From: Tragulus kanchil
Taxonomy: Eukaryota; Chordata; Mammalia; Artiodactyla; Tragulidae
Direction of reading: 5' to 3'
Length of the DNA: 64,000 bases
Assembly (NCBI GenBank): GCA_022376925.1
Contig: JAIOJX010000005.1
Span: 95,825,001 to 95,889,000, forward strand
The notes under the pieces are model-generated. The model was not told the origin of the DNA. It worked only from the letters and a program-made list of their open reading frames with translations, and made no database searches. Positions 761-64,000 of the stretch are shown piece after piece; the stretch's first letter is position 1; each line of letters begins with the position of its first letter. The translations under genes were made by a program, and so were the position numbers.

Positions 761-974
761 GAGATCATAAACACTTTACTTTTGCTTTTGTTTTTGCAAG
801 GTAAAAAGAAGTCTTCCAGACTTATCAAATAAATCACAATTCTGTAGATAATTAAGAATCTTTACAAATTATTATTATGCTTTTCATTTAAAGTCTAATT
901 TTATTTCATTTATTTTAATTTGATTTTTAGAAGTTCATTTCTCATTTATTTAACTGTTGAGAGTGTTTTGGATT

Positions 975-1195
975 TTGTAAAAATATTTTTGTTGAAATAT
1001 ACTTGATTTACAATGTGTGTTAGTTTCACGTATACAGCATATTGAATCAGTTATACATTACATATATCCACTCATTTTTAGATTCTTTTCCTATATAGGT
1101 CATTAGAGTACTGAGTAAAGTTCTCTGTGCTATACAGTAGGTTTTAATTAGTGGTCTATTATATATATAGTGGTATGTATAAATCAATCCCAATA
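975..1195 (-). mobile_element. Old L1 3' end fragment, antisense
   Basis: The text running from the CTTGATTTACAATG block through GTGCTATACAGTAGG is the reverse complement of the 3' UTR common to cetartiodactyl L1 elements. The same family appears in sense orientation at 61058-61318. It is diverged and 5'-truncated, with no coding content left. Confidence 0.75.
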
Positions 1196-2128
1196 AAAAT
1201 AGTGGTTAACAGGTCACAATGCCTTAAATGTATGCATGTTGTCAGACCCTTCCTATCCTTGTCAAGGGAGTGCTAACCTTTTCCTTTCACATAACACTAG
1301 ATCTAATTTGAAAGCCAGTTTATTTTTTATCATCTGTTCAATGGTACAGAATGATCCCTAGATTTATAGCAAGGACATGTGTTTTATTGCTCTAATTTAT
1401 TTTGGTCCTGATTTCCTTGGGAATAAGACTTTGGGTTACAAGCCTCAAATAAATATTGCATAATTATTTTTTATTACATAAAGTCATACTATCGTTAAAA
1501 AGTATCCTTAAAATATGCTTGAAGTCAGAAAAAATCTAAAAACTCTTATTTCTATATTTTAGAGTTAGGCAAACTTATAATTAAGTTATAAATTTAATCA
1601 TGTAAATATAATATAGTATATACATTAAGGAATGTATTGTCATATTTTGAAAAAAATGTTTTAACTAGATGATAAAATTACCTATGTGTTAAGGATGCTG
1701 TTTAAATAAGTTTGGTTAGAATTTCTTCACGATATTAAAAAATCAAAATAAGAAGTACTAAAATATTACAGGAAGAAAATCAAATCAAATGAGTAGTCAA
1801 GATTATAACACATTTAATATTTCACCTGAAAATGATAGGAATTGGATTCAAATGGTATCTTTTTTAACAGGGTCATATCTGTTTTCTAAAATTCTAATTA
1901 AAATTCTTCTGTAGACCTAGGTGGAGGGAGACACAGTTTTCAGACTATAGAAAATAAAGACAGGCAGAATACCTACAGGTAAAATCTTGGACAGTTTGAC
2001 AATAATTAAGAATCTTTACAAATTATTATTATGCTTTTCATTTAAAGTCTAATTTTATTTCATTTATTTTAATTTGATTTTTAGAAGTTCATTTCTCATT
2101 TATTTAACTGTTGAGAGTGTTTTGGATT

Positions 2129-2349
2129 TTGTAAAAATATTTTTGTTGAAATATACTTGATTTACAATGTGTGTTAGTTTCACGTATACAGCATATTGAA
2201 TCAGTTATACATTACATATATCCACTCATTTTTAGATTCTTTTCCTATATAGGTCATTAGAGTACTGAGTAAAGTTCTCTGTGCTATACAGTAGGTTTTA
2301 ATTAGTGGTCTATTATATATATAGTGGTATGTATAAATCAATCCCAATA
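2129..2349 (-). mobile_element. Copy of the 975-1195 L1 fragment
   Basis: Identical to the L1 3' fragment at 975-1195 and displaced by 1154 bases. It exists because it lies inside tandem duplication 1 and should not be counted as an independent insertion. Confidence 0.75.
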
Positions 2350-2667
2350 AAAATAGTGGTTAACAGGTCACAATGCCTTAAATGTATGCATGTTGTCAGA
2401 CCCTTCCTATCCTTGTCAAGGGAGTGCTAACCTTTTCCTTTCACATAACACTAGATCTAATTTGAAAGCCAGTTTATTTTTTATCATCTGTTCAATGGTA
2501 CAGAATGATCCCTAGATTTATAGCAAGGACATGTGTTTTATTGCTCTAATTTATTTTGGTCCTGATTTCCTTGGGAATAAGACTTTGGGTTACAAGCCTC
2601 AAATAAATATTGCATAATTATTTTTTATTACATAAAGTCATACTATCGTTAAAAAGTATCCTTAAAA

Positions 2668-5003
2668 TATGCTTGAAGTCAGAAAAAATCTAAAAACTCT
2701 TATTTCTATATTTTAGAGTTAGGCAAACTTATAATTAAGTTATAAATTTAATCATGTAAATATAATATAGTATATACATTAAGGAATGTATTGTCATATT
2801 TTGAAAAAAATGTTTTAACTAGATGATAAAATTACCTATGTGTTAAGGATGCTGTTTAAATAAGTTTGGTTAGAATTTCTTCACGATATTAAAAAATCAA
2901 AATAAGAAGTACTAAAATATTACAGGAAGAAAATCAAATCAAATGAGTAGTCAAGATTATAACACATTTAATATTTCACCTGAAAATGATAGGAATTGGA
3001 TTCAAATGGTATCTTTTTTAACAGGGTCATATCTGTTTTCTCTAAAATTCTAATTAAAATTCTTCTGTAGACCTAGGTGGAGGGAGACACAGTTTTCAGA
3101 CTATAGAAAATAAAGACAGGCAGAATACCTACAGGTAAAATCTTGGACAGTTTGACAATAATTATAAGACAGACAGATATAGATTGAGAATAATCTTCCA
3201 AGAGTTGAACACAGAGTGCACTTTGAGAGGTCTGCAAGTCTATCTGAAATAGATAGGAGGATGTTGAGTACCTCCTTCACTATTATTATTGTGCTTAAAA
3301 ATACAGGGTGAGGACTCTCCTGTGTTTGTCACCTATGGAAATAATTTTAAATCCAGGCAAAGAATAAGTGGCCCATTAGATAACTAAGGGAAAATTCAGG
3401 TAAACTGGTGGTTTATTCTTGGAGTACAGATCCTTAAAAAAAGGCAGGCATGTGACTTCAGGAAAATCTTTGATAGCCATGTATGCTTAGGAAAGTATAG
3501 TTTTTTATTTACTCTGTCATGCCATGGGAAATGAGACTCAATGGAGATGACTGTTAGACATTCCATTAGCATAGGATCTTTATTTCTTACACTGCTTCAG
3601 TCTACTGCCTGCTACATACTAGTTACTGGATTTTTGATCAACTGCTTGCTTCACCCCACTGTATCTTAAAGTAAATCTAAAGAACATGGGATAAACCATG
3701 TAATCATTATCATCATTATTGTAAGCATCTTAATTAGTATAATTATATCTAATATTCATAGAGCTCAGTTCTTAGTGCTAGATTCTCTGCTGACATTATT
3801 TTTAGCATTTTGTAGTAAAAGTCATTCATTATTTTTTTTTTTTTTCTATGCTTGAAGTCAGAAAAATCTAAAAACTCTTATTTCTATATTTTAGAGTTAG
3901 GCAAACTTATAATTAAGTTATAAATTTAATCATGTAAATATAATATAGTATATACATTAAGGAATGTATTGTCATATTTTGAAAAAAATGTTTTAACTAG
4001 ATGATAAAATTACCTATGTGTTAAGGATGCTGTTTAAATAAGTTTGGTTAGAATTTCTTCACGATATTAAAAAATCAAAATAAGAAGTACTAAAATATTA
4101 CAGGAAGAAAATCAAATCAAATGAGTAGTCAAGATTATAACACATTTAATATTTCACCTGAAAATGATAGGAATTGGATTCAAATGGTATCTTTTTTAAC
4201 AGGGTCATATCTGTTTTCTCTAAAATTCTAATTAAAATTCTTCTGTAGACCTAGGTGGAGGGAGACACAGTTTTCAGACTATAGAAAATAAAGACAGGCA
4301 GAATACCTACAGGTAAAATCTTGGACAGTTTGACAATAATTATAAGACAGACAGATATAGATTGAGAATAATCTTCCAAGAGTTGAACACAGAGTGCACT
4401 TTGAGAGGTCTGCAAGTCTATCTGAAATAGATAGGAGGATGTTGAGTACCTCCTTCACTATTATTATTGTGCTTAAAAATACAGGGTGAGGACTCTCCTG
4501 TGTTTGTCACCTATGGAAATAATTTTAAATCCAGGCAAAGAATAAGTGGCCCATTAGATAACTAAGGGAAAATTCAGGTAAACTGGTGGTTTATTCTTGG
4601 AGTACAGATCCTTAAAAAAAGGCAGGCATGTGACTTCAGGAAAATCTTTGATAGCCATGTATGCTTAGGAAAGTATAGTTTTTTATTTACTCTGTCATGC
4701 CATGGGAAATGAGACTCAATGGAGATGACTGTTAGACATTCCATTAGCATAGGATCTTTATTTCTTACACTGCTTCAGTCTACTGCCTGCTACATACTAG
4801 TTACTGGATTTTTGATCAACTGCTTGCTTCACCCCACTGTATCTTAAAGTAAATCTAAAGAACATGGGATAAACCATGTAATCATTATCATCATTATTGT
4901 AAGCATCTTAATTAGTATAATTATATCTAATATTCATAGAGCTCAGTTCTTAGTGCTAGATTCTCTGCTGACATTATTTTTAGCATTTTTGTAGTAAAAG
5001 TCA
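2668..5003 (+). repeat. Tandem duplication 2 (unit about 1178 bp)
   Basis: Bases 2668-3824 recur at 3847-5003, with one A fewer in an A run at the start of the second copy and one T fewer near the end of the first. The copies are separated by 22 bases (3825-3846) ending in a long T run that match neither flank. The first part of this unit is also in duplication 1, so 2668-3165 material is present three times. Confidence 0.92.
3166..3824. other. Unannotated AT-rich DNA
   Basis: No repeat family, gene or RNA recognised. The stretch is inside the duplicated unit of tandem duplication 2 and reappears at about 4344-5003. Confidence 0.4.
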
Positions 5004-6754
5004 CATAATAAAAAACATTATTTTGGCCGTGTTTAATGGTACAGTTCAGTGGCACTAAGTACATTCACATGGTGTAACTCTCACCATCATTGGTCTCCTG
5101 AATTTTCACCTTTCTAAACTGAAACCATGTCCCCATTAAACAGTAAATCCCCATTTTCCTCCCTACCTTGTCACCCCAGACCCTGGCATCTACCAGTGCA
5201 TTTTCTAAATCTAGGAATTTGACTATGCTAGGTACCTCGTACAGCATTTAACTAACATTATGTTATTCATATGACAACCCTGAAGCATAGATAATGACAT
5301 AATCCTCATTTGAAATAAACTGGCCAGAGGTTACTAGAAGTAGCAGCTGGAACGTTGGAACTCAGGCATTGCCTCCATACCCAGGCTCTTGTTTGGCTAA
5401 ACAAAGAAGTCATCCGGTGGCAGGTAGTGCTCTTTGAATGTTTTTCTCCTCACTCTCAGTGTAAGAGAACCCTCAGGCTTTCTTTAGCCCTATGGTTGCC
5501 AGAAATAAACCCAACTTTAAGTGGCTCTGTTAAAGGTGGGTATAGTCATATGAATATGTTCTATCTGATGTAATCAAGTTGAAGTGATAGGTACAGTACT
5601 AGAAATCTTAAGAGACTGAAGAAAATATTTTTCTTGGTTTCTTTCCTTTTCCCAATGACAGCTTTTGTTTTGCCTTTGTAGTTTCTTAATTCCCACAGAT
5701 CCTTAAAAAGGCAGGCATGTGACTTCAGGAAAATATTTGATAGCCATGTATGCTTAGGAAAGTATAGTTTTTTATTTACTCTGTCATGCCATGGGAAATG
5801 AGACTCAATGGAGATGACTGTTAGACATTCCATTAGCATAGGATCTTTATTTCTTACACTGCTTCAGTCTACTGCCTGCTACATACTAGTTACTGGATTT
5901 TTGATCAACTGCTTGCTTCACCCCACTGTATCTTAAAGTAAATCTAAAGAACATGGGATAAACCATGTAATCATTATCATCATTATTGTAAGCATCTTAA
6001 TTAGTATAATTATATCTAATATTCATAGAGCTCAGTTCTTAGTGCTAGATTCTCTGCTGACATTATTTTTAGCATTTTTGTAGTAAAAGTCACATAATAA
6101 AAAACATTATTTTGGCCGTGTTTAATGGTACAGTTCAGTGGCACTAAGTACATTCACATGGTGTAACTCTCACCATCATTGGTCTCCTGAATTTTCACCT
6201 TTCTAAACTGAAACCATGTCCCCATTAAACAGTAAATCCCCATTTTCCTCCCTACCTTGTCACCCCAGACCCTGGCATCTACCAGTGCATTTTCTAAATC
6301 TAGGAATTTGACTATGCTAGGTACCTCGTACAGCATTTAACTAACATTATGTTATTCATATGACAACCCTGAAGCATAGATAATGACATAATCCTCATTT
6401 GAAATAAACTGGCCAGAGGTTACTAGAAGTAGCAGCTGGAACGTTGGAACTCAGGCATTGCCTCCATACCCAGGCTCTTGTTTGGCTAAACAAAGAAGTC
6501 ATCCGGTGGCAGGTAGTGCTCTTTGAATGTTTTTCTCCTCACTCTCAGTGTAAGAGAACCCTCAGGCTTTCTTTAGCCCTATGGTTGCCAGAAATAAACC
6601 CAACTTTAAGTGGCTCTGTTAAAGGTGGGTATAGTCATATGAATATGTTCTATCTGATGTAATCAAGTTGAAGTGATAGGTACAGTACTAGAAATCTTAA
6701 GAGACTGAAGAAAATATTTTTCTTGGTTTCTTTCCTTTTCCCAATGACAGCTTT
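4604..6754 (+). repeat. Tandem duplication 3 (unit about 1091 bp)
   Basis: Bases 4604-5664 recur at 5695-6754. The 30 bases between the copies (5665-5694) look like an error-filled continuation of the upstream copy. Two A residues are missing in the A run at the start of the second copy (near 5704) compared with 4612. Small open frames in the unit (5065-5247 minus, 5355-5573 plus) recur exactly at 6154-6336 and 6444-6662, as expected for duplicated non-coding DNA. Confidence 0.92.
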
Positions 6755-9005
6755 GTTGTTGCAGCCTTAATAGCAAGATAGGACCCTTTCTGGTTAACGT
6801 TGCCTCTACACTTATGCAAGTCTCCCAAAGGGAAAGACAAAGTTAAAGTTAGTCCATTATCTTTTACCTAAGACTATTGTTTTGAAAATAAGTGATGTGG
6901 CTTCTTTGGAAAACAAAAAAAGAAAAAACAAAAAAACACGGGATAAGAAGGGCCTAGGAGCCAGTATGTATGAGGTCAGTTTTTAGACTTAGAAACTATG
7001 GCTAAGCAAAAACACTTGGCTATGATTTCCTATACATGAAACCAAGCAAACACATCAAAAGTCTTCAAAGAAGGCAATCAAGTTAGCCAAAAAAAAAAAA
7101 TCACAAAAATTTGTGAAAATTCATCCTTTAAAATCAACCTGTAAGGCTCCAAAATCTATACCATCTGTAGTTCTGAACACTCTAATGGCATCTTCAGATG
7201 AGGTCATGTAGATAAATGGACAGGAGATAACCTCCAAAGGACAGAGCCTTGGACTACAGATGACAAAGGAGTTTTCCCCAGAAAGTGAAATCAGAGGCTG
7301 CCAGCTGGAAAAGCTTAAAAACTTAATCTACCATCAGCCTGCTGATTGCTTATTATTTGGAAATTTTTATTATGATTACACTTAGGATTTTCTACCATCT
7401 TATACATAATTAGGCCATCAGAAATCATATCCTAGCTTGATGGAAAGATATGAACTTCCCTAGGCATCCTGGACTTGAAGTTGCACACAGTAATTGAATA
7501 CAACCTTGGAATTGCTTATTTGGGGGAGAAAGTCTACATGTTTCACCAGCAGGGGTGGATATTCATGGATATATTGTGCCAGAGACTGATGATTCTTCCT
7601 CAGTTTCTATTTATTCTTCTTTGCTAATAGGATTTTTGAATTTAAATTGGGAACAAGATTACCCAGTATAAAGCTGATATTTTCTAACATACCTTGAAGC
7701 TAAGTGTTGCAATGTGACAATGTTCTGGTCATGATCAATATCTTATAAGTGCAGGTAGTGTATACAGCCTCTTACAAAGGCAGGGTCTGAACAAAGGCAG
7801 GGTCCCAATGTTATCTTTTTCTGTTGGATTCAATTCCATTGTGATAGGGGAGGTTAAGACAGCCATCTTAGACTGGGAAATAGAAATCTGGTGTGGAGAA
7901 TACTAGGTTCCTGATGATATTGAAGTCAGCGTACCTGTCTTAGAATGCCTTTTACACAACAGAGATAAAATTCTGTCTTTTTTAAGTCTGTGAAAGGTAC
8001 TGTTACTTGGAGTTTTTTTTTTTTTTTTTCTTAATTCTTTCCAAACTTAATCTTACCAATTCATGTTGAATGACAGTTTAATGAAAGAGACTAATCCTGA
8101 CAAACCCTGGGAAAATGTGAATTAATCATTAATTAGGAAATACATTTTTAAAAGTGAGTAATTTTAGATGTCTAAAACTAATTAATTTACAGTTTTTAAA
8201 AATACTGTGTACTAAATGATCAGAGGGACTTTTTTGGGGACTACATCTAGATATACTGCTAGAGGCAGAAACATTCATCTTCCTAAATACATACCTGAGC
8301 TGATGTGAAAGAAAAGAAGTTCTTTAGAAGTGAAGAATTTTAACTCCACTGGGGTAAAGAGAATCTTGGGGTTATTATGACACATTGTTCATTCCTGTTG
8401 GGATGACTGAAAGTCCACGTTCACAGTGGGATGCTTAGATTAAAAAATAAGAAAAAAAATCTCTACAAAGGGCAATAGTGTGATCTATTATTATCTTGGC
8501 CTGAAATAGAGTGGAAAAAATTTCATTTGAAAACTTTAAAGAAAAGCTTAACTCTTACTTGAATTTAGAGCAAGAAAAATCTTGTGGCCAGAAAAAGTAC
8601 GGCCTAAAATATACTTTTTAATTTTTCCCTATGTTAAGTGCTTTTAGGATATTAGTAAAAGAAAACTAATATCTTCTTTAAGGGATGCAGTTTAACTGCA
8701 GACTGCAAATGCTTCTAAATAAGGTGGCAAGAAAGATAAACTAGCAATCAAAGAGCTTTAATTACATAAGAAAGAAAAAAAAGATAGCAAACTAGCAAAA
8801 TATACCATCATGGATAAGAAGATTTTTATGTAGTGAATATAATAGTAACTTTTTGTTGTTAAAATACACTATGAAAAAAATAAAATTATAAAAAAATAGA
8901 TATCTATGAATGTGATCAGGCATATTTGTTTAAAATCAAATAGAACTTTAAGAAGTTAAAAATGTAAGACCAAACTTTAAATCAGTCAGTGGATGCATTA
9001 AGCCA
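6755..9005. other. Single-copy AT-rich DNA, no gene seen
   Basis: This stretch is not covered by any of the tandem duplications. It has an A-rich run near 6906-6937, another near 7090-7100 and a T run at about 8011-8030. No splice-flanked coding frame, RNA gene or familiar interspersed repeat was recognised. Confidence 0.45.
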
Positions 9006-12072: not shown

Positions 12073-12871
12073 TTTTTTTCAGCTGGAGAGGAGAAATCTA
12101 ATGATAAAATCAGAGTACAGCTACAAAAGAAACTCAATTTTTTAACTATGTAGGGCAAATTCTTTTCAATTTCCCTCTAGTAACATGAAAGAGTTGTAGC
12201 ATGAACGGTTATCAGAATGCTTGCTGATATTTTTCTTTTTTAATGAACTCTTTTGATTCACATCGCCACACGTGGTGGGGAAAAAAAATAAATTGGATTA
12301 AGCACCATTTCCAGCTTTCTGCTTCTATTTCTTTATAGATAATGTCTGCTTGCATTCCTGACTTTGGGTCTCAAGGTTTAATACTACACTTACTTCAAAA
12401 AGAAAATATTGCCAGCAGTTCCACATTTCTGAGGAATACTCCTGTAGCACATACACCCTGACGCTGCTTTGAGAGTTTCATTCAGTGATCTGGGCAATGG
12501 CCTTAAACACCCGTAAGACCCTAATTAACTGTTAACTGTAAGTAGGAAACATTTGACAGAAGGCAGTCATCAAATTTAAACTCTTATATCATTGCTTATT
12601 AGACATTTATGATTTGTTCACTTAATTCTACTAGAAATATTTTTAAAGATGCCAGTAATTTTATGAAACAGTATGTTTTGGAGTAATTTAGTTTGGAAGA
12701 TGAAATTACATCTGTCCATTGAATTTCATGTGGAGTTGATTTCATTCAGAAATGATTAATGAATTATCCAACTATTTTAATTTAAATTGTTTTTCTAATT
12801 AGTTTATTTACTTAATCTAAAGTTTTAGTTATAAACTTAAATTATGTCTCACTCAGGAATATTTACAATGA

Positions 12872-13020
12872 AATTGGATTTCCTGGTGGTTAAGTGGTTA
12901 GGGCCTTTGTATTTCTGCTGCAGGGGCCATGGGTTTGATCCCTGGTCTGGTAACTAAGATACCACAGGTCTCTTGGGCAGAGTCCCCTCTCCCCAACACC
13001 ACCGAACGATGGAATAAAGA
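12872..13020 (+). mobile_element. CHR-type SINE, shortened
   Basis: The head GGATTTCCTGGTGGTTAAG and the tRNA-like segment GGTTTGATCCCTGGTCTGG are followed by a short body ending in GGAATAAAGACC. A possible target-site duplication ATTTACAAT lies on both sides (about 12861-12869 and 13027-13035). It is diverged from the consensus. Confidence 0.7.
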
Positions 13021-13936
13021 CCTAAAATTTACAATAGTTTCTTTACTTTCAACTAGAGCTTGTCTTAAGAATTAAACCACTTAAAAAAATAACAGTAATT
13101 TCTAATTACCCATATTTAATGTCAAGCAAATATTACCTTTTTTTCAGCTGGAGAGGAGAAATCTAATGATAAAATCAGAGTACAGCTACAAAAGAAACTC
13201 AATTTTTTAACTATGTAGGGCAAATTCTTTTCAATTTCCCTCTAGTAACATGAAAGAGTTGTAGCATGAACGGTTATCAGAATGCTTGCTGATATTTTTC
13301 TTTTTTAATGAACTCTTTTGATTCACATCGCCACACGTGGTGGGGAAAAAAAATAAATTGGATTAAGCACCATTTCCAGCTTTCTGCTTCTATTTCTTTA
13401 TAGATAATGTCTGCTTGCATTCCTGACTTTGGGTCTCAAGGTTTAATACTACACTTACTTCAAAAAGAAAATATTGCCAGCAGTTCCACATTTCTGAGGA
13501 ATACTCCTGTAGCACATACACCCTGACGCTGCTTTGAGAGTTTCATTCAGTGATCTGGGCAATGGCCTTAAACACCCGTAAGACCCTAATTAACTGTTAA
13601 CTGTAAGTAGGAAACATTTGACAGAAGGCAGTCATCAAATTTAAACTCTTATATCATTGCTTATTAGACATTTATGATTTGTTCACTTAATTCTACTAGA
13701 AATATTTTTAAAGATGCCAGTAATTTTATGAAACAGTATGTTTTGGAGTAATTTAGTTTGGAAGATGAAATTACATCTGTCCATTGAATTTCATGTGGAG
13801 TTGATTTCATTCAGAAATGATTAATGAATTATCCAACTATTTTAATTTAAATTGTTTTTCTAATTAGTTTATTTACTTAATCTAAAGTTTTAGTTATAAA
13901 CTTAAATTATGTCTCACTCAGGAATATTTACAATGA

Positions 13937-14088
13937 AATTGGATTTCCTGGTGGTTAAGTGGTTAGGGCCTTTGTATTTCTGCTGCAGGGGCCATGGGTT
14001 TGATCCCTGGTCTGGTAACTAAGATACCACAGGTCTCTTGGGCAGAGTCCCCCCTCTCCCCCAACACCACCGAACGAATGGAATAAAG
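13937..14088 (+). mobile_element. Copy of the 12872 CHR-type SINE
   Basis: Same SINE as 12872-13020, displaced by tandem duplication 4 with a few extra C and A residues. A third, 5'-cut copy starts at 15181 because of tandem duplication 5. Confidence 0.7.
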
Positions 14089-14386
14089 ACCTAAAAATTT
14101 ACAATAGTTTCTTTACTTTCAACTAGAGCTTGTCTAAATTAAATGAAAGTTAAAAAGATCTTCAGATTGAGTTCATAGTAAATACTGTAATAGAAATAAC
14201 AGTAATTTCTAATTACCCATATTTAATGTCAAGCAAATATTACCTGTGCTTATTATGAATATTAGATAAAATCTTCACACAATAGAAAAAATCTCTTCCT
14301 ACTTTTAGTATGCATGCATAATCTCTAGTTAGTTCATTCTTAAAACTCTAAAAAGAAAATACATATTTAGGCTCAATATTATTATG

Positions 14387-14592
14387 TTGTTATTGTTTAG
14401 TCATCAAGTCATATCTGACTCTTTTGTGACCCCCATGGACTGTGGCACACCAGGCTCCTGTGTCCATGGGATTTCCCAGGCAAGAATGCTGGAGTGGATT
14501 GCTATTTCCTCTGGGGATCTTCCTAACCCAGGGATCGAACCTTTGTCTGCTGCATTGGCAGGCAGCAGACACATATAGCCACCAGGGAAGCT
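14387..14592 (-). mobile_element. Bov-tA SINE, antisense, near complete
   Basis: Reading on the plus strand it starts with the BovB-derived tail (TTGTTTAGTCATCAAGTC) and passes through CCATGGACTGTGGC and GGATCTTCCTAACCCAGG. It ends in the tRNA-Glu-like head as GCCACCAGGGAAGC. Open frames of 64-84 codons on both strands at 14384-14644 lie entirely in this SINE and are not genes. Confidence 0.9.
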
Positions 14593-15543
14593 TGAAGGTA
14601 TCATCAACTTCTTTGTACCATTTATGTTTTAGAAGATAAAACATATAAATGACTGTAGTTTAAAAAACTTTTTTATGTTTATTATCTGAGCTCATTATAT
14701 GAAAGAAAAAAGGTGATTTTTTTTCTTGTTGCTATTATTGGAATTTTCTCTGATCAGTATACATATACAACACTACACCTGTTTTTACATTTGTGGTTCT
14801 CTTTATCTTTGTATTTTGTTCTCAGAAAATTATGCCTTAAAATTTTTTTCAACTCTTCCTATGAACTGAGATAAATTTTGAGAAGAAAGGAGCATCTAAC
14901 AAAGCACACTCACCCAGACTAGAGGTTTAAGGAACTCATTGTTTTTGAATTTAGATCTAGTGAAGGAATTGAGAGACACTTTCCATATATCAGGAGAAAA
15001 TTTTTTGCATTTTCTGTACCTGCAACCTCCTGTTTAAAGGATATATTTATCTAATCTTCCTGCTCTCACAGGTTGCCAGCTAGTTCTTTAACACTGGTGT
15101 GAATATGTGAACCATACCATCAATTCTATTCATATCTCTCGCTGCAATCTAAAATTTTAGCTACTCAACTGTGTACCCCAAAGATACCACAGGTCTCTTG
15201 GGCAGAGTCCCCCCTCCCCCAACACCACCGAACGAATGGAATAAAGACCTAAAAATTTACAATAGTTTCTTTACTTTCAACTAGAGCTTGTCTAAATTAA
15301 ATGAAAGTTAAAAAGATCTTCAGATTGAGTTCATAGTAAATACTGTAATAGAAATAACAGTAATTTCTAATTACCCATATTTAATGTCAAGCAAATATTA
15401 CCTGTGCTTATTATGAATATTAGATAAAATCTTCACACAATAGAAAAAATCTCTTCCTACTTTTAGTATGCATGCATAATCTCTAGTTAGTTCATTCTTA
15501 AAACTCTAAAAAGAAAATACATATTTAGGCTCAATATTATTAT

Positions 15544-23765: not shown

Positions 23766-23798
23766 TAAGTGTTTTGTTTTAGAAAAGCACAAATTTAA

Positions 23799-48335: not shown

Positions 48336-48447
48336 TAAAAATTATTTATTAATTTGTTAAGTGAGAATTATAAAATTCCCAGGTTTCACAGTTATTTGGG
48401 GCATTTTAATAAATAGTTTGTTTAAATATATTGTTAAAATAACTTGG

Positions 48448-48737: not shown

Positions 48738-49615
48738 CAACATGGTTTTATAGAAGAATAATTTGAGGGTGAGGTACTTGCTTTTTCATATAAATCATTA
48801 TTATAAAGTTATCAAAATTAAAATAGTATAAAAAGGAGAGTGCATAAACATGTAGATGGAATAGAGAGATGTAAAATACATCCATTTGTGTATAACATAA
48901 TATATAAACAAATGGCATCTCTTTTTACTAGAGAAAGGTTAGATCGCTCAATCAATGCTATAAGACAACTGTTATACATATAAAAATAATATGCAAGTTA
49001 ATATGATTTTACATAAAAATAACTGAATATTTTTGAAAAAATCACGCTGATTAAATAGATCATGGTTTTGTTAAATGTACATTAATTGTACACAGTGTCT
49101 GTATTCTAAGAGTAGTTTCAGGGATATCTTGAGGATGAAGGAGATGATAGGAAAGAAAGAACAAGAGTGGTTTCCTTGGCAGTTCCGTGGTAAAGAATCT
49201 ACCTGCCAAGCAGGAGACTAGAGTTTAATCCCCCAGAGGAGCCTGGTGGGCTATAGTCCCTTGGGTCACAAAGAGTCAGACATGACTTAGAGACTAAACA
49301 ACAACCACCAAGGAGAAGGAGAACATATAAAGACTGCTTTCACAGAGTGATCTGATAGTGGGAATTCATAAAATTATTTACTAATTCTTGGGCCTTTCTG
49401 GTTGTTCAGTGGTTAGGAACTCGGGCTTTCAAAGCAGGTGGCAGAGGTATGTTCCCTGGTCAGAGAATTGAGGTCCCACATGTCACATTGTATGGTCGGA
49501 TTTTTAAAAATTATTTATTAATTTGTTAAGTGAGAATTATAAAATTCCCAGGTTTCACAGTTATTTGGGGCATTTTAATAAATAGTTTGTTTAAATATAT
49601 TGTTAAAATAACTTG

Positions 49616-49812
49616 GGTTTCCCAGGTGGCTCAGTGGTAAACAATCTGCCTACCAATGCAGGAGACACAGGTTCAATCCCTATTTTGGGAAGATTCTCTG
49701 GAGTAGGAAATGACAACCACTCCAGTATTCTTGCCTGGAGAAGCCCAAGTATCCCTGTGAGCTCTGATCCATGGTGTTGCAAAGAGCTGGACACCACTTA
49801 GTGACTGAACAA
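49616..49812 (+). mobile_element. Bov-tA SINE, sense, near complete
   Basis: GGTTTCCCAGGTGGCTCAG head, CAGGTTCAATCCC B box, GGGAAGATTCTCTGGAG, CTCCAGTATTCTTGCC, then GCAAAGAGCTGGACACC and GTGACTGAACAATAA. The link between tRNA head and BovB-derived tail is intact. Confidence 0.9.
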
Positions 49813-52264: not shown

Positions 52265-54472
52265 AAAAATATTTTATAAAATATAGTTTTAATTCTCAGT
52301 CTCAGTGGTACAATTTAAAATCTCCCGTTGCCTTACTTGTTTGCTACTTACTTGGCATAGTCAGATTTCTTTTACTTTTGAACAGTTTTTGGGAATGTAG
52401 TGAATAATGGAATTTAATAATTCCATTTAATATGCATTTGTAATATGCATTCTTCTGATTGCTATGACGAAATATAACCTTGATAGAATTTTACTGGAGA
52501 CTCAGATATCTTCCATTGTACAGCACTTGTGAATTTTTCATTTTATTATTTGTTTATCTGTCTTTATCTTACTGAGTTCAAGGAATTCTTTATGTATTCT
52601 GAACGTGAGGTCTCAGTCAATTTTATATATTTCAATTACCATTTTTGATTTGTGGTTTGAATTTTCACATTTTTAATGATAACTTTTAATAAATTAATAA
52701 TAATTAAGGACTATACATTTAACATTATAAATAATACTAAAATTGATGATAAATGGTGATGTATGCCTAAAGGAGAATTCCATATAGCAAAAAATGAGTA
52801 ATTATTGGCTGCTTACTTAAATGTATGATTTTAGAAATGTATTGCATATAAAATAAAACATCAAATAAAATAATGTGTCCTTTATTATTGCATTTATGAT
52901 GAGTCCCAAATCAAACAAAGCTAATTTATGCTGTCAAAGGTCAAGATTATTATTGTACAGACATATGAAGGAGGCGTCCAAGGTTTTGGAAATTTTCTCA
53001 TATTTGACTTCTATTGCATTTACATTATCACATATTTTGTTGGTCATTGAGTTGTGCAGGTGTTCTTGCTGTACTATGGCTTACCTATGTATCCTATACC
53101 TCACCTTTAAAAAAAAAGGTTAAAAATAGGAAACGTTAATTTCACCAAGAAAATGTGGCAATTACCAAGGAGAGGAAAAGCATTCTTAATGCATGATGGA
53201 TTTCAAAGAAGTCCTAATTAAAGAGGTATTTAAAAAAAGCACGATACATTCAGAGAATTACGGCATCAATCTCCAAAGTGTGATATTGCTTTAGAACTGT
53301 TTTATATCCAATAAAAATTTTCAGTTGCATGTTAGAAAGTGAGATTCAAATTTGACCGAACAACAAAAATATTTTATAAAATATAGTTTTAATTCTCAGT
53401 CTCAGTGGTACAATTTAAAATCTCCCGTTGCCTTACTTGTTTGCTACTTACTTGGCATAGTCAGATTTCTTTTACTTTTGAACAGTTTTTGGGAATGTAG
53501 TGAATAATGGAATTTAATAATTCCATTTAATATGCATTTGTAATATGCATTCTTCTGATTGCTATGACGAAATATAACCTTGATAGAATTTTACTGGAGA
53601 CTCAGATATCTTCCATTGTACAGCACTTGTGAATTTTTCATTTTATTATTTGTTTATCTGTCTTTATCTTACTGAGTTCAAGGAATTCTTTATGTATTCT
53701 GAACGTGAGGTCTCAGTCAATTTTATATATTTCAATTACCATTTTTGATTTGTGGTTTGAATTTTCACATTTTTAATGATAACTTTTAATAAATTAATAA
53801 TAATTAAGGACTATACATTTAACATTATAAATAATACTAAAATTGATGATAAATGGTGATGTATGCCTAAAGGAGAATTCCATATAGCAAAAAATGAGTA
53901 ATTATTGGCTGCTTACTTAAATGTATGATTTTAGAAATGTATTGCATATAAAATAAAACATCAAATAAAATAATGTGTCCTTTATTATTGCATTTATGAT
54001 GAGTCCCAAATCAAACAAAGCTAATTTATGCTGTCAAAGGTCAAGATTATTATTGTACAGACATATGAAGGAGGCGTCCAAGGTTTTGGAAATTTTCTCA
54101 TATTTGACTTCTATTGCATTTACATTATCACATATTTTGTTGGTCATTGAGTTGTGCAGGTGTTCTTGCTGTACTATGGCTTACCTATGTATCCTATACC
54201 TCACCTTTAAAAAAAAAGGTTAAAAATAGGAAACGTTAATTTCACCAAGAAAATGTGGCAATTACCAAGGAGAGGAAAAGCATTCTTAATGCATGATGGA
54301 TTTCAAAGAAGTCCTAATTAAGAGAGGTATTTAAAAAAAAAAGCACGATACATTCAGAGAATTACGGCATCAATCTCCAAAGTGTGATATTGCTTTAGAA
54401 CTGTTTTATATCCAATAAAAAATTTTCAGTTGCATGTTAGAAAGTGAGATTCAAATTTGACCGAACAACAAA
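52265..54472 (+). repeat. Tandem duplication 16 (unit 1100 bp)
   Basis: Bases 52265-53364 recur at 53365-54472. The copies match until the last 150 bases of the upstream copy, where A runs are shorter and TTAAAGAGG stands for TTAAGAGAGG (the latter confirmed by a third copy near 55379). The junction shares CAACAAA. Confidence 0.93.
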
Positions 54473-54537
54473 GAAACTTATTGTCTTGTAAAGTAGTCCA
54501 AGTTAGGGGAGCTCCAGAACATGTTGAACCCATGTAC

Positions 54538-54880
54538 TATGGACTGCATGTTTGTGCTTCCCTAAAGTTTGTATGTTGAAACTCTAATCCCCAATGTAAT
54601 GACAATTGGAGTTGTAGACATTTATTTGGAGGTAATTAAGACAGAAGATTGGAGCCCTCCTGATTCTGTTAGTGCCCTTATAGGAAAAGGCATGAGCGAG
54701 CTCATTTCCGTTCTCTCCCTTTCTTTACTATGGGAGGATACAACAGAAACATAGCTCTTTGAAAACCAAGAAAAGGGTGCTCACAGGACTTGTAGCCTCC
54801 AGAACTCTAGGAATAAATGGTGGTTGTTTTCCAGTCTGTGGTATTCTGTTAGAGCGGCCCCAATAGACTGAGACGTCCTG
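54538..54880 (+). mobile_element. MaLR solo LTR, MLT1-like
   Basis: TATGGACTGCATGTTTGTGC, GTATGTTGAAACTCTAATCC, TATTTGGAGGTAATTAAG, AGTGCCCTTATAGG, CCTCCAGAACTCTAGGAATA and GTCTGTGGTATTCTGTTAG occur in the order of the mammalian MLT1 LTRs (ERVL-MaLR). It ends near CAATAGACTGAGAC. It is diverged, and the middle is shorter than in full-length MLT1. The 61-codon frame at 54569-54754 is LTR sequence. Copy at 55600-55942. Confidence 0.8.
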
Positions 54881-55599
54881 GTTCAGTAATGGCTTTGGGG
54901 ACCCAGAGTTTCCAAATCTTTTGGTTTTGCTAGCTTATGTTCTATTATCCTAGGCTGATTCATCTGTGTCAAAATATCTCATTTAGTCCCTATAATCCAG
55001 GGTTATGAAAGGGACTCTCCTATAACCGGTCAGAACAAGCACTCATTGCCTAGAAGCACTTCAGAAGTTTCCCTTTGTTCTCATTAGCCAAAACTGTAAC
55101 CTATAGCAGTATTTAAATTAATCATTGGTAAAGGGAATAGAACCATTAAGATTGACTTCTCATATTTGACTTCTATTGCATTTACATTATCACATATTTT
55201 GTTGGTCATTGAGTTGTGCAGGTGTTCTTGCTGTACTATGGCTTACCTATGTATCCTATACCTCACCTTTAAAAAAAAAGGTTAAAAATAGGAAACGTTA
55301 ATTTCACCAAGAAAATGTGGCAATTACCAAGGAGAGGAAAAGCATTCTTAATGCATGATGGATTTCAAAGAAGTCCTAATTAAGAGAGGTATTTAAAAAA
55401 AAAAGCACGATACATTCAGAGAATTACGGCATCAATCTCCAAAGTGTGATATTGCTTTAGAACTGTTTTATATCCAATAAAAAATTTTCAGTTGCATGTT
55501 AGAAAGTGAGATTCAAATTTGACCGAACAACAAAGAAACTTATTGTCTTGTAAAGTAGTCCAAGTTAGGGGAGCTCCAGAACATGTTGAACCCATGTAC

Positions 55600-55942
55600 T
55601 ATGGACTGCATGTTTGTGCTTCCCTAAAGTTTGTATGTTGAAACTCTAATCCCCAATGTAATGACAATTGGAGTTGTAGACATTTATTTGGAGGTAATTA
55701 AGACAGAAGATTGGAGCCCTCCTGATTCTGTTAGTGCCCTTATAGGAAAAGGCATGAGCGAGCTCATTTCCGTTCTCTCCCTTTCTTTACTATGGGAGGA
55801 TACAACAGAAACATAGCTCTTTGAAAACCAAGAAAAGGGTGCTCACAGGACTTGTAGCCTCCAGAACTCTAGGAATAAATGGTGGTTGTTTTCCAGTCTG
55901 TGGTATTCTGTTAGAGCGGCCCCAATAGACTGAGACGTCCTG
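55600..55942 (+). mobile_element. Copy of the MLT1-like LTR
   Basis: Exact repeat of 54538-54880 carried by tandem duplication 17. Confidence 0.8.
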
Positions 55943-56221
55943 GTTCAGTAATGGCTTTGGGGACCCAGAGTTTCCAAATCTTTTGGTTTTGCTAGCTTAT
56001 GTTCTATTATCCTAGGCTGATTCATCTGTGTCAAAATATCTCATTTAGTCCCTATAATCCAGGGTTATGAAAGGGACTCTCCTATAACCGGTCAGAACAA
56101 GCACTCATTGCCTAGAAGCACTTCAGAAGTTTCCCTTTGTTCTCATTAGCCAAAACTGTAACCTATAGCAGTATTTAAATTAATCATTGGTAAAGGGAAT
56201 AGAACCATTAAGATTGACTTC

Positions 56222-57245: not shown

Positions 57246-57874
57246 TAGGAAGCACAAGGAATTCAAAAATTAAGAGGAAATTAGTTCTGTTCTTAAGAAG
57301 CCTAATACAACAGAAGAGGTAGCTGATCCCACTGCAATACCCCCAAATATAGCCATCATTTAAGAGAAATAAAGGGAGCACCCAAAGAGGAGGCAATTGA
57401 TTCTATTTTGAGGCTTAGTAAAAAGATTTGACAGAGTTCATGGCCACTAGGCTCCATGCTGAGATAAGATTTTGTAGGCATATATAATAAAGAGTATTAA
57501 TGTTCTAAAGATATAAAAGTTTATGGTTTTCTACTACAGTCACTTTTTTTATTATTTAAGACAAATCTGCACTACATTGCAAAAGTGCTTGAAATTCCTT
57601 CAAGTTAATATGCATTCACACGTATATCAAAAGTTTACAGTTTTTAAAAGTTACTTCTAAATTTTCCTAACATTTACCAAAACAGTGATCCATGATTTGA
57701 TTACTTATGCATAATACTTTCTACATAACCTGTTTTATGACTCAATAGAGTCAGCAGTAAAAGGCATATACTTTTATGAAATAGTATAACTAGTAAGTTA
57801 ACCTAGCATTACTGATAGGCAAGATTACAAAGCAACTTAGTTTTGACTTCTCTGTATCTTTAAAATGCATTCAC

Positions 57875-58210
57875 ACATATATATGGAATCTAGTAGGATG
57901 GTAATGATAACACATACAGTGAAGCGATGGAAAAACAGACATAGACAGTAAACATATGGATATTATGGGGAATAAACAGTAGATGGGAGGCGTAAAGGAA
58001 GTAGCATGAAAACCTATACTATCATATGTGGAAAAAATAGCTATTGTCATTGTGCTGTGAGAAAAGGGGATCCTGCAGGGGTGCTGTGCGATGGCCTGGA
58101 GGGGTGGGATGGGGGCGATATACATATGACTAATCTGGGATCATACATATCTGTAAACAACAAAACTCTGTAAAAGTAAAAAGTAAAATAAAATTACAAA
58201 AAAGAAAACA
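57875..58210 (+). mobile_element. 5'-truncated L1 3' end, sense
   Basis: CACATATATATGGAATCTAG, CACAGTGAAGCG-like text, GCATGAAAACCTATACTATC, GGATCCTGCAGGGGTGC and TACATATGACTAATCTGGG match the 3' UTR of the full-length L1 at 33668. It ends in GTAAAATAAAATTAC plus poly(A). ATGCATTCA before and GCGCATTCA after the tail may be the target-site duplication. It supplies the empty site for the solo LTR. Confidence 0.85.
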
Positions 58211-58974
58211 AAAAGCGCATTCAGTAGAATTATTTTTCCATCGCCTTGCATGAAAACTCAGGTGGTGTCATGGTTATTGTACTCCCCTGTCATGTTTTTA
58301 CCTTCTAAATTAAAACCTCATCTCCTTTCAAAACTGGTTTTGAAAGTAAAAGCACAAGGAATTCAAAAATTAAGAGGAAATTAGTTCTGTTCTTAAGAAG
58401 CCTAATACAACAGAAGAGGTAGCTGATCCCACTGCAATACCCCCAAATATAGCCATCATTTAAGAGAAATAAAGGGAGCACCCAAAGAGGAGGCAATTGA
58501 TTCTATTTTGAGGCTTAGTAAAAAGATTTGACAGAGTTCATGGCCACTAGGCTCCATGCTGAGATAAGATTTTGTAGGCATATATAATAAAGAGTATTAA
58601 TGTTCTAAAGATATAAAAGTTTATGGTTTTCTACTACAGTCACTTTTTTTATTATTTAAGACAAATCTGCACTACATTGCAAAAGTGCTTGAAATTCCTT
58701 CAAGTTAATATGCATTCACACGTATATCAAAAGTTTACAGTTTTTAAAAGTTACTTCTAAATTTTCCTAACATTTACCAAAACAGTGATCCATGATTTGA
58801 TTACTTATGCATAATACTTTCTACATAACCTGTTTTATGACTCAATAGAGTCAGCAGTAAAAGGCATATACTTTTATGAAATAGTATAACTAGTAAGTTA
58901 ACCTAGCATTACTGATAGGCAAGATTACAAAGCAACTTAGTTTTGACTTCTCTGTATCTTTAAAATGCATTCAC

Positions 58975-59321
58975 ACATATATATGGAATCTAGTAGGATG
59001 GTAATGATAACACATACAGTGAAGCGATGGAAAAACAGACATAGACAGTAAACATATGGATATTATGGGGAATAAACAGTAGGTGGGAGGCGTAAAGGAA
59101 GTAGCATGAAAACCTATACTATCATATGTGGAAAAAATAGCTATTGTCATTGTGCTGTGAGAAAAGGGGATCCTGCAGGGGTGCTGTGCGATGGCCTGGA
59201 GGGGTGGGATGGGGGCGATATACATATGACTAATCTGGGATCATACATATCTGTAAACAACAAAACTCTGTAAAAGTAAAAAGTAAAATAAAATTACAAA
59301 AAAAAAAAAAAACAAAAAAAG
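58975..59321 (+). mobile_element. Copy of the truncated L1
   Basis: Repeat of 57875-58210 through duplication 18, with a longer poly(A) (about 15 A near 59300). Confidence 0.85.
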
Positions 59322-59449
59322 CGCATTCAGTAGAATTATTTTTCCATCGCCTTGCATGAAAACTCAGGTGGTGTCAGGGTTATTGTAATCACATGTCATG
59401 TTTTTACATTATAAATTAAAACATCATCTCATTTCACAAATTAAATTGT

Positions 59450-60370: not shown

Positions 60371-60689
60371 TTTGTTTGTTTGTTTGTTTTTGTTTTTTTT
60401 TTGGGGGGGGGGGGTGGGGGACAGGTGGGCCACTTCTATTGTTCTTTCATTTATTCAGTTTCATCCATCTTTGTTCTTTTTTTTGGCCTGTGTGGTCTCC
60501 CATCGCAGTGACCTCTGTTATCGCAGAGCACCGGCTCTGGGCATATGTACTCCAGAGCTCCGGCTTGGTAATTGGACACTTCGGTCTAGCTGCTCCGTGG
60601 CACGTGGGATCTTCCCAGGCCAGGGATGGAACCGGCGCCCCTTGCACTGCAAGGCGGTGTCCTTACCCACTGTACCACCAGGGAAGCCC
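60371..60689 (-). mobile_element. CHR-variant SINE, long form, second in a pair
   Basis: Flanks GTGCCATAGCTTTT (60357-60370) and GTGCCATTGCTTTT (60690-60703) differ at one base. Same layout as the copy 170 bases upstream: G-rich block (60402-60429), GGCCACTTCTATTG and head ACCACCAGGGAAGCCC. The B box is altered (GGGATGGAACCGG on the plus strand). Distinct target-site duplications show two separate insertions, not a duplication. Confidence 0.93.
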
Positions 60690-61057
60690 GTGCCATTGCT
60701 TTTGAAGATGCACCCTCATCTCTTCTCAGATTATATAAAAATGTAAACAAAATAGATAATTTTGGAATATTGTAAGTTCTGATGTGTCTTCTTTTGCCAG
60801 TATGACAGCTTATCAGAGAAATTGGAATCAAGAAGGAAGAAGAGAGAGTCAGGATGGTCCCAGTAAAACTGGAGGGGAGTAAAGCTTGTCCCTCTGTACC
60901 CAAGAGATGGAGAGTGAATGTAGAAGGAAGAGAAGGAAAATAACAGGAGGACAGTGATTGATGCACCAGGTTTTGGTTTCTTCTATCCACTTCTTCAAAC
61001 TGATCATTGATGAGGAAATTGCTTTCAGAACACCTGAATACTAGGGGGTAAGGCAAG

Positions 61058-61318
61058 CAATAAATTGGGAGACTGGGATTGGCATATATGCTAATATATA
61101 TAAAATTAATAACTAATGAGGACCAGCTGTATAACACAGGGAACTCTACTCAAATCTACTCTCAGAGTATATAGGTCAATATTCTGTAATGACCTATATG
61201 GGAAAGAATCTAAAGAAAAGTGAATATATGTATATACATATAACTGGTTCACTTTGCTGTGCACCTGAAATTAACACAAGACTGTAAAATCAACTATACT
61301 TCAATTAAAATTTTAAAA
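61058..61318 (+). mobile_element. Old L1 3' end, sense
   Basis: GGGAGACTGGGATTGGC, TATAACACAGGGAACTC, CAATATTCTGTAATGACC, TTCACTTTGCTGTGCACC and CAACTATACTTCAATTAAA follow the cetartiodactyl L1 3' UTR. Copies at 62153-62414 and, 5'-cut, at 63404-63487. Confidence 0.87.
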
Positions 61319-61601
61319 GTGAAATTTGTTGAAGGACATAGCAGAGGGCAACAGCAACCTCCTGTGTCCATGCACCCTGCCCCTAGTGTGAGGGGTACTC
61401 ATTGCTGACTCTAATGAAAAAATGTGTGTGTTCTAAAAGAGTCTGTGGACTCCCAGAGAACTAATCAAAGAGAAGAGAATGCAGACAGCAAGTGAAACTG
61501 GGCAAAGCATTCACTCAGATACTGTATCCCAATATAACGAAAAATTCCCAGTGGAAGCTATGAATATCACAATTGAGAGGTGCCAGCACAGATACACAGT
61601 C

Positions 61602-61785
61602 CAGTGACCTCTGTTATCGCAGAGCACCGGCTCTGGGCATATGTACTCAGAGCTCCGGCTTGGTAATTGGACACTTGGTCTAGCTGCTCCGTGGCACGTG
61701 GGATCTTCCCAGGCCAGGGATGGAACCGGCGCCCCTTGCACTGCAAGGCGGTGTCCTTACCCACTGTACCACCAGGGAAGCCCGT
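61602..61785 (-). mobile_element. Partial copy of the 60371 SINE
   Basis: Begins at the duplication 19 junction inside the SINE body and runs to the head; TSD-like GTGCCATTGC follows. Not an independent insertion. Confidence 0.88.
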
Positions 61786-62152
61786 GCCATTGCTTTTGAA
61801 GATGCACCCTCATCTCTTCTCAGATTATATAAAAATGTAAACAAAATAGATAATTTTGGAATATTGTAAGTTCTGATGTGTCTTCTTTTGCCAGTATGAC
61901 AGCTTATCAGAGAAATTGGAATCAAGAAGGAAGAAGAGAGAGTCAGGAGGGTCCCAGTAAAACTGGAGGGAGTAAAGCTTGTCCCTCTGTACCCAAGAGA
62001 TGGAGAGTGAATGTAGAAGGAAGAGAAGGAAAATAACAGGAGGACAGTGATTGATGCACCAGGTTTTGGTTTCTTCTATCCACTTCTTCAAACTGATCAT
62101 TGATGAGGAAATTGCTTTCAGAACACCTGAATACTAGGGGGTAAGGCAAGCA

Positions 62153-62414
62153 ATAAATTGGGAGACTGGGATTGGCATATATGCTAATATATATAAAATT
62201 AATAACTAATGAGGACCAGCTGTATAACACAGGGAACTCTACTCAAATCTACTCTCAGAGTATATAGGTCAATATTCTGTAATGACCTATATGGGAAAGA
62301 ATCTAAAGAAAAGTGAATATATGTATATACATATAACTGGTTCACTTTGCTGTGCACCTGAAATTAACACAAGACTGTAAAATCAACTATACTTCAATTA
62401 AAATTTTAAAAAGT
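62153..62414 (+). mobile_element. Copy of the 61058 L1 3' end
   Basis: Displaced by duplication 19; one extra A in the terminal A run. Confidence 0.86.
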
Positions 62415-62644
62415 GAAATTTGTTGAAGGACATAGCAGAGGGCAACAGCAACCTCCTGTGTCCATGCACCCTGCCCCTAGTGTGAGGGGTACTCATTGCT
62501 GACTCTAATGAAAAAATGTGTGTGTTCTAAAAGAGTCTGTGGACTCCCAGAGAACTAATCAAAGAGAAGAGAATGCAGACAGCAAGTGAAACTGGGCAAA
62601 GCATTCACTCAGATACTGTATCCCAATATAACTAAAAATTCCCA

Positions 62645-62836
62645 GTGGAAGCTATGAATATCACAATTGAGAGTTGCCAACTCAGATACACAGTCCAGAT
62701 GGGAAGTGCAGCAGATAGTGAATTTGTAAGACACCATCTGGATTCAAGCACAGATCTTCTCTGCTTTCATAAAGATGGGGTGGACATCCTTAAACCCCAT
62801 ATGTTCTTTGAAGAGAAGAAAGAAATGGCATTCTGA
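62645..62836 (+). other. Unexplained 63-codon frame, repeated at 63719
   Basis: A 63-codon frame starting MEAMNITIESCQLRY, exactly repeated at 63719-63910 by duplication 20. I recognise no domain. The partial first copy (from about 61556) is altered and cut by the junction. No upstream promoter or splice evidence. Chance frame or remnant of an unrecognised repeat. Confidence 0.25.
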
Positions 62837-63074
62837 AAGCATTTAACATAAACTTGATAAGATCAAATTATTATTGATTTAAATGTGTAAATTTTCAGAT
62901 TATTTCAGCTAGGTAAAAAACTGTTCTGTATACATCTGAATGTAGTTTGAATAAAACTGTGATGAAGATTATTAAGAATAATTCCTTCTTATTTCTTATC
63001 AGAAAATGTTTAACTTTATAACATGCATTTCAGTATCTTCTAAGGTTAACTTTTTTATCTGTTGATATAAAATA

Positions 63075-63290
63075 ATGGTTTCCCAATTTTTTTGACTTAT
63101 GGCTCCTTTAAAGTCTTAAAAGCTATTGAGCATTTCATGGACTTCTTTGTATGAGTTATTTCTACTAATATTTACCACATTACAAATTGAAACTAAGAAA
63201 AATTTTAGGTATTTATTAATTCACTTATAGTAGCAGTAAAACATCCATTATATGTAAACATATTTTTAAATAACTATTTTGAGATGGTAA
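63075..63290. repeat. Probable old interspersed repeat, family uncertain
   Basis: TTGACTTATGGCTCCTTTAA, TTATTTCTACTAATATTTACC and ACAAATTGAAACTAAGA resemble a widespread old mammalian repeat that I have seen in many genomes but cannot name with confidence. Confidence 0.4.
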
Positions 63291-63291
63291 C

Positions 63292-63398
63292 AAGCATATG
63301 AAAAGATACTCAACATCACTAATCATCAGAAAAATGCAAATCAAAGCCACAAATAAATACCCAAATACAATGTGCCTATCAATAGACAAATGGGTAAA
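63292..63398 (+). mobile_element. Old L1 ORF2 3' end remnants, sense
   Basis: CATATGAAAAGATACTCAAC, CATCACTAATCATCAG and AAATGCAAATCAAAGCC are the KHMKR...LIIRE part of ORF2. CTATCAATAGACAAATGGG is a later L1 segment. An internal deletion joins them. Cut by the duplication 20 junction at 63404. Confidence 0.8.
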
Positions 63399-64000
63399 TA
63401 AAAACATATAACTGGTTCACTTTGCTGTGCACCTGAAATTAACACAAGACTGTAAAATCAACTATACTTCAATTAAAATTTTAAAAGTGAAATTTGTTGA
63501 AGGACATAGCAGAGGGCAACAGCAACCTCCTGTGTCCATGCACCCTGCCCCTAGTGTGAGGGGTACTCATTGCTGACTCTAATGAAAAAATGTGTGTGTT
63601 CTAAAAGAGTCTGTGGACTCCCAGAGAACTAATCAAAGAGAAGAGAATGCAGACAGCAAGTGAAACTGGGCAAAGCATTCACTCAGATACTGTATCCCAA
63701 TATAACTAAAAATTCCCAGTGGAAGCTATGAATATCACAATTGAGAGTTGCCAACTCAGATACACAGTCCAGATGGGAAGTGCAGCAGATAGTGAATTTG
63801 TAAGACACCATCTGGATTCAAGCACAGATCTTCTCTGCTTTCATAAAGATGGGGTGGACATCCTTAAACCCCATATGTTCTTTGAAGAGAAGAAAGAAAT
63901 GGCATTCTGAAAGCATTTAACATAAACTTGATAAGATCAAATTATTATTGATTTAAATGTGTAAATTTTCAGATTATTTCAGCTAGGTAAAAAACTGTTC

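Follow-up and report, generated by a model that had tools for sequence, protein, structure and literature searches.

Homotype false duplications are described by the Vertebrate Genomes Project, in the passages drawn on here, as under-collapsed copies at contig boundaries that are made by the assembly and are about as long as a read (Rhie et al. 2021, PMC8081667; Ko et al. 2022, PMC9516828). Duplicated overlapping contigs (DOC; Kelley and Salzberg 2010, PMC2864568) are, in the part of that paper used here, attributed to haplotype differences and amount to 9.7 kb to 16.7 Mb per genome; the same part describes haplotype-type tandem false duplications for chicken, chimpanzee and cow. The false high-fidelity duplications of the Btau 4.2 assembly were sought above 5 kb and, in the section considered, are tentatively ascribed to BACs that overlap but stem from different haplotypes (Zimin et al. 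2012, PMC3411808).

The window that we analysed, by which we mean the whole 64-kb stretch of DNA, holds repeats that are almost certainly false ('homotype') duplications from genome assembly and not real duplications. Like the homotype cases (PMC8081667, PMC9516828), they are adjacent, near-identical, under-collapsed copies at what the edge errors suggest are piece boundaries, but they occur about three times per 10 kb in our sample and with no marked gap in the window. As in DOC (PMC2864568), the overlapping ends of neighbouring pieces, which we take to be contigs, appear to have both been retained, here at 74 junctions. Unlike DOC, with a median identity of 98.1%, our copies are near-identical, fall into one size class and make up 27-35% of the sampled sequence. 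With Btau 4.2 (PMC3411808) this ruminant assembly shares a richness in false near-identical duplications, although the present repeats are only about 1.1 kb long. These likenesses and differences refer to the portions of the papers named above. Among the literature matches listed, no title or abstract reported such an assembler failure.

All twenty direct repeats reported in the earlier note are real, with near-identical copies at the coordinates listed in Table 1. The offsets between copies range from 1016 to 1179 bp (mean 1108.05, SD 44.3, n=20), as against a claimed mean of about 1107, and neighbouring junctions lie 1792-7443 bp apart, in keeping with the claimed 1.8-7.4 kb. The copies are indeed adjacent, but the gap limit of 30 bases does not hold, as up to 37 unalignable bases separate them; pair 20, which is cut by the window end and whose second copy is completed in the flanking sequence, was excluded from this count. 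Likewise, pairs are found throughout the window but do not cover it in full as had been claimed, and undoubled stretches persist, for example at about 6.8-12.0 kb. The extra bases from the twenty pairs sum to 22,161, which bears out the proposed inflation by about 21-22 kb, and the locus without them would measure about 41.8 kb. The pairs at 29030, 32120, 39421 and 55157 show no difference at all over 1016-1171 bp, and their copies abut head to tail. When direct repeats of at least 100 bp were listed, excluding words that occur more than 8 times, every offset was either a pair offset or the sum of two neighbouring offsets, the latter arising at overlaps of three units. Inverted matches with more than 30 shared 24-mers are absent from the window, and no N lies between pieces there. 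Tandem Repeats Finder gave short-period arrays only in the window; the 1.1-kb pairs are absent from its output because its limit is 500 bases.

Table 1. Repeat pairs in the 64-kb window (positions within the window; offsets in bp).
Pair	Copy 1	Copy 2	Span	Strand	Offset	Remarks
1	848-2008	2002-3164	848..3164	.	1154	
2	2668-3824	3847-5003	2668..5003	.	1179	
3	4604-5673	5695-6762	4604..6762	.	1091	
4	12073-13138	13138-14245	12073..14245	.	1065	copy 1 end 42 bases shorter, in small pieces
5	14021-15175	15181-16342	14021..16342	.	1160	
6	17148-18281	18295-19426	17148..19426	.	1147	
7	23000-24068	24069-25147	23000..25147	.	1069	
8	25821-26918	26919-28007	25821..28007	.	1098	
9	27909-29033	29030-30154	27909..30154	.	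1121	zero differences
10	30948-32120	32119-33291	30948..33291	.	1171	zero differences
11	34191-35246	35284-36329	34191..36329	.	1093	doubles L1 ORF2 residues 1097-1223
12	38405-39426	39421-40442	38405..40442	.	1016	zero differences; doubles L1 ORF2 residues 269-409
13	40445-41487	41520-42562	40445..42562	.	1075	
14	43523-44630	44633-45742	43523..45742	.	1110	
15	47400-48578	48577-49747	47400..49747	.	1177	deletions in copy 2 head; paralogue sides with copy 1
16	52265-53367	53365-54472	52265..54472	.	1100	
17	54095-55159	55157-56221	54095..56221	.	1062	zero differences
18	57250-58330	58350-59436	57250..59436	.	1100	
19	60506-61604	61602-62698	60506..62698	.	1096	paralogue sides with copy 1 at two deletions
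20	from 62329	from 63404	62329..64000	.	1075	cut by window end, completed in flank

The differences between copies are concentrated at the junctions. In the 19 complete window pairs, 73 of the 89 differences fall no farther than 150 bp from a junction, where 27% would be expected, and for 52 of 59 indels it is the copy nearer its own edge that lacks the bases. Across the window 101 bases are absent from edge copies and 14 from interior copies, and the inner parts of the pairs hold 16 events in about 15.2 kb. Among all 71 fully aligned junctions, inside and outside the window, event density is 15-21 per kb within 75 bp and 0.6-1.4 per kb beyond 150 bp, and 164 of 211 indels are short in the edge copy. 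Outside the window alone this is the case for 108 of 147 indels, for which p = 1e-8 holds under an assumption of independence that the indels of one edge do not satisfy. Base loss near the edges of the 71 junctions (340 vs 142 bases) is less one-sided than in the window, where four of the five edge indels at junction 24068 also run in the opposite direction. At two junctions (pairs 15 and 19), a SINE paralogue retains the bases absent from the edge copy. We conclude that the copy differences are sequencing or consensus errors and not haplotype variants; some inner differences look SNP-like, and a few of these could be SNPs. Since the errors cluster at the edges, the junctions are probably the boundaries of assembly pieces.

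One L1 ORF2 in the window reads residues 5-104, 269-409, 269-435, 439-752, 745-1223 and 1097-1223, in the numbering of human ORF2p (8uw3). Its order is broken by two doubled segments, residues 269-409 and 1097-1223. A search with one piece of an L1 ORF2 gave no match in viral contigs, and 12 pattern hits with zero relatives in genome contigs; positions 1-25000 of the window (25 of 64 kb) had no match among plasmids and phages.

The defect is not local and goes beyond the locus of the earlier note, with 74 junctions in 254 kb, or about 3 per 10 kb. Both 50-kb flanks of the window are filled with the same repeats, which were found in 10 of 11 sampled stretches on 11 contigs of the assembly; the remaining stretch (C12, 6 kb) has zero junctions. 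The 74 offsets have a mean of 1111, an SD of 38 and a range of 1016-1189, within a searched range of 950-1260. Together, the edge errors, the interrupted L1 ORF2 and the recurrence of the repeats in the flanks and in other contigs argue for false joins, and the earlier proposal that ends of about 1.1 kb were joined without merging is the best explanation. We consider it fairly probable that, throughout this public, chromosome-scale mammal assembly of 3.167 Gb, a false tandem duplication of 1.1 kb occurs every 3-4 kb, due to one assembler step that did not merge grid-based consensus units. Our sample comes from 11 of 32 contigs and may not represent the whole assembly. With 27-35% of the whole 3.167 Gb taken as false, the true sequence would come to about 2.05-2.3 Gb; ruminant genomes are generally larger than this, which counts against extrapolating to the whole assembly.

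The chromosome sequence was most probably built up of successive consensus units, 1.8-7.8 kb long, in which a unit and its successor have about 1.1 kb in common. Wherever joining failed, the two neighbours would have been written in full and the shared stretch would be present twice. That errors survive at the edges only might reflect few reads at these positions, or polishing reads that could not be mapped across a false join. The 63 units between junctions measure 1.8-7.8 kb; none is shorter than 1792 bases (7 x 256) and 15 fall within the next 128 bases. Their lengths cluster in phase at 256 bases (p = 0.007; p = 0.003 for a scan of 235-280). This period was derived from the 19 window units and retested on the 44 others alone, which have a minimum of 1800 and give p = 0.03 at 256 and p = 0.058 for the 235-280 scan. 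Start spacings carry no 256-base signal (p 0.42 at 256). A 1-kb grid in junction spacing was tried and abandoned: the spacings gave p 0.02-0.03, with the optimum at a limit of the periods scanned, and the positions gave p 0.14-0.20.

The assemblers wtdbg and wtdbg2, ascribed to Ruan and Li in 2020, reportedly work with 256-base bins and 1024-base nodes and let consecutive units overlap by one node, and such a layout is said to have a unit minimum of 7 bins. The unit floor of 1792 and the weak 256-base rhythm suggest a binned long-read assembler of this type, in which case neighbouring units would overlap by one node of about 1024 bases. Overlaps from 1016 and units from 1792 resemble this layout, although the overlaps (1016-1189, mean 1111) average 8% above the 1024-base node. 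An exponential excess over a threshold of 1000 bases fits the overlap sizes poorly (p = 0.003), and an even distribution between 1000 and 1200 is compatible with them (p = 0.11). On balance, weak as the 256-base signal is, we favour the view that the pieces are units of a wtdbg/wtdbg2-type assembler. The 'short contigs' of the earlier note are retained as unmerged neighbours, but the floor and the rhythm make fixed-grid long-read consensus units likelier than ordinary short contigs.

The same artefact could have another cause, which would replace only the assembler part of our explanation: ordinary draft contigs may have been bridged by a single common read about 1.1 kb long, for instance an untrimmed Sanger trace, or gaps may have been filled with untrimmed flanks. 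We regard this as possible but rather doubtful. The offsets vary about as little as read lengths might, the deletion-rich ends often lie on one side of a junction only, and homotype duplications are reported, in the passages drawn on, to be about as long as reads (PMC8081667). However, there is no N between the pieces in the window, the unit floor and the weak rhythm speak against it, and contigs of up to 297 Mb would better suit a long-read project.

If instead both parental alleles of each overlap stood side by side, this would be a known source of tandem false duplications (PMC2864568), and the SNP-like inner differences would fit. But the size is fixed, the errors lie at edges and are not spread, and the published cases, as far as the part used here goes, have a median identity of 98.1% with few above 99.5% (PMC2864568). 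We reject haplotype duplication as the main cause because some pairs are identical throughout their 1016-1171 bp, and consider it very improbable. Microhomology-mediated tandem duplications come in varied sizes and ages. Real genome-wide duplications by replication errors of this kind (template switching) would account for the head-to-tail arrangement, the 1-8 base matches at joins and the small changes close to breakpoints, but they can practically be dismissed, given a single size class in 10 of 11 sampled stretches, scant inner divergence and dense, one-sided loss of bases from edge copies, and would make 27-35% of the sampled sequence fresh duplications.

False duplication at this scale is a serious data warning and not biology. 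Wherever a junction lies inside a gene or close to one, it would distort gene models, counts of repeats and of duplications, estimates of genome size, tests of selection and the mapping of reads. If it holds genome-wide, about a quarter to a third of the bases in the assembly would be spurious, and other affected assemblies could be recognised by the 256-base rhythm. Self-matching at offsets of 1.0-1.2 kb offers a simple screen for these.

Many joins show 1-8 matching bases, above chance, which suggests that trivial overlaps may have been enough for the joiner. This excess is limited to joins with touching or overlapping ends (31 of 71), and such a rule fails for some joins because the end contacts of the seven difference-free junctions span -61 to +4. 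Errors at the ends are not the sole cause of non-merging either, since four window pairs match perfectly along more than 1 kb. For five of six unaligned tails tested, nothing within 4 kb matched better than shuffled controls did; the sixth (35247-35278) is a near-copy of 35202-35234.

The tandem repeats of about 1.1 kb in the window are almost certainly an assembly artefact. An earlier note had proposed that short contigs with common ends were joined without being merged, and this is borne out by the errors at the edges, the broken order of an L1 element and the same pattern elsewhere in the assembly. All 20 direct repeats that it listed were recovered by k-mer self-comparison of the window, and by local alignment the offset between copies is 1016-1179 bp (mean 1108, SD 44). 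Matches at about twice the offset mark spots where three units, the pieces between junctions, overlap. With words occurring more than 8 times excluded, the self-comparison found no further direct repeat of at least 100 bp in the window. N bases are likewise absent, and no inverted match has over 30 common 24-mers. The surplus sequence totals 22,161 bases, leaving 41,839. A U6atac snRNA-like match (Rfam RF00619) at 1195-1297 and 2349-2451, minus strand, is doubled solely because it is located within the first pair.

The 19 complete pairs (20,932 aligned bases) contain 89 differences between copies, and 73 of these lie within 150 bp of the junction, where 27% would be expected. The shorter version of an indel is in the edge copy, the one nearer its own junction edge, in 52 of 59 cases (p = 1e-9 if independent, which indels of one edge are not); junction 24068 is the exception, as 4 of its 5 indels run the opposite way. 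Within 150 bp, edge copies lack 101 bases and interior copies 14. A related SINE copy at 59985 retains bases that are absent from the edge copy at junctions 48579 and 61602. From the edge errors and this comparison, the junction edges look like the ends of consensus pieces with thin support, the other copy being more accurate. Among the inner differences, 14 of 16 fall at 0.29-0.74 of the overlap, perhaps reflecting a coverage dip in the middle. Two oddities were seen at single joins. Copy 1 of pair 11 finishes, directly at the false join, with a stutter in which 35247-35278 nearly repeats 35202-35234 with one base fewer. Pair 18 has seven sites (58282-58325), all in the final 70 bases of its copy 1, with C where copy 2 has A, an odd error type next to the usual deletions.

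A long minus-strand L1 at about 34.9-40.7 kb serves as an internal ruler. Its split ORF2 pieces, in differing frames, are close to human ORF2p, and the two doubled stretches sit at junctions 39421 and 35279.

Pieces of L1 ORF2 from high to low window coordinates (human ORF2p residues, 8uw3 numbering; the search covered the protein outside residues 105-268)
Piece	Residues	Strand
1	5-104	-
2	269-409	-
3	269-435	-
4	439-752	-
5	745-1223	-
6	1097-1223 (second occurrence)	-

The assembly comprises 3,167,203,957 bases in 32 contigs, and the window occupies 95825001-95889000 of contig C6. We scanned the 100 kb flanking the window and six 10-kb stretches (contigs C1, C2, C3, C5, C6 and C8) also at every offset up to 4 kb, and five 6-kb stretches (C4, C7, C10, C11 and C12) solely at 950-1260 bp. 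The contiguous 164 kb including the window has 52 junctions. The 90 kb of the 11 other stretches add 22; ten of these stretches have one or more, and the C12 stretch has none at 950-1260 bp. Across the 74 junctions the offset averages 1111 (SD 38, range 1016-1189). The error counts omit three whose alignment runs into a stretch end. At the remaining 71, differences number 15-21 per kb up to 75 bp from the junction and 0.6-1.4 per kb at distances above 150 bp. The edge copy has the shorter version of 164 of 211 indels (outside the window 108 of 147, p = 1e-8 if independent), and near-edge base loss, at 340 in edge against 142 in interior copies, is less one-sided than in the window. The doubled fraction amounts to 0.35 for the contiguous 164 kb, compared with 0.27 for the remaining stretches. 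The defect is in all likelihood assembly-wide. The largest contigs reach 297 Mb, which suggests few, large chromosomes enlarged by the artefact. The C1 stretch (20000001-20010000) has 394 N, so the assembly does flag certain gaps or masked regions, unlike the false joins of the window. The SINEs in the sequence are of Bov-tA type, presumably indicative of a ruminant.

False duplications in assemblies have been described (Kelley and Salzberg 2010, PMC2864568; Zimin et al. 2012, PMC3411808; Ko et al. 2022, PMC9516828), homotype ones being frequent at contig boundaries and of about read length (Rhie et al. 2021, PMC8081667). Compared with the examples that we drew from these papers, the present case is unlike them in density and regularity.

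The common ends of adjacent pieces were almost certainly written out twice. Sequence error is not the sole cause of non-merging, because four window pairs show zero differences. Ends touch or overlap at 31 of 71 junctions, the other 40 having unaligned, uninformative ends, and 28 of the 31 have at least one common base (outside the window 19 of 20, against about 47% by chance), proportions that gapped alignment may slightly inflate. The 11 such joins in the window have 31 matching bases where 8.6 are expected (p below 0.001); four of them were scored from the gapped alignment, and the seven scored via exact runs give 26 bases (p below 0.001). An overlap aligner content with a trivial end match could have produced these short matches.

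The 63 units between junctions have a minimum length of 1792 bases, and 15 lie in the following 128 bases. Phase clustering of the unit lengths is seen at about 256-266: a test at 256 gives p 0.007, and one scanning 235-280 gives p 0.003. Start spacings carry no 256-base signal. The 256-base idea arose from the 19 window units. Taken alone, the 44 units outside the window have a minimum of 1800; for them the test at 256 gives p = 0.03 and the same scan p = 0.058. Assemblers of the wtdbg type use 256-base bins and 1024-base nodes, adjacent units having one node in common; nodes may overlap by one bin, which would make the smallest unit 7 x 256 = 1792. We consider it moderately probable that the units come from such a binned assembler.
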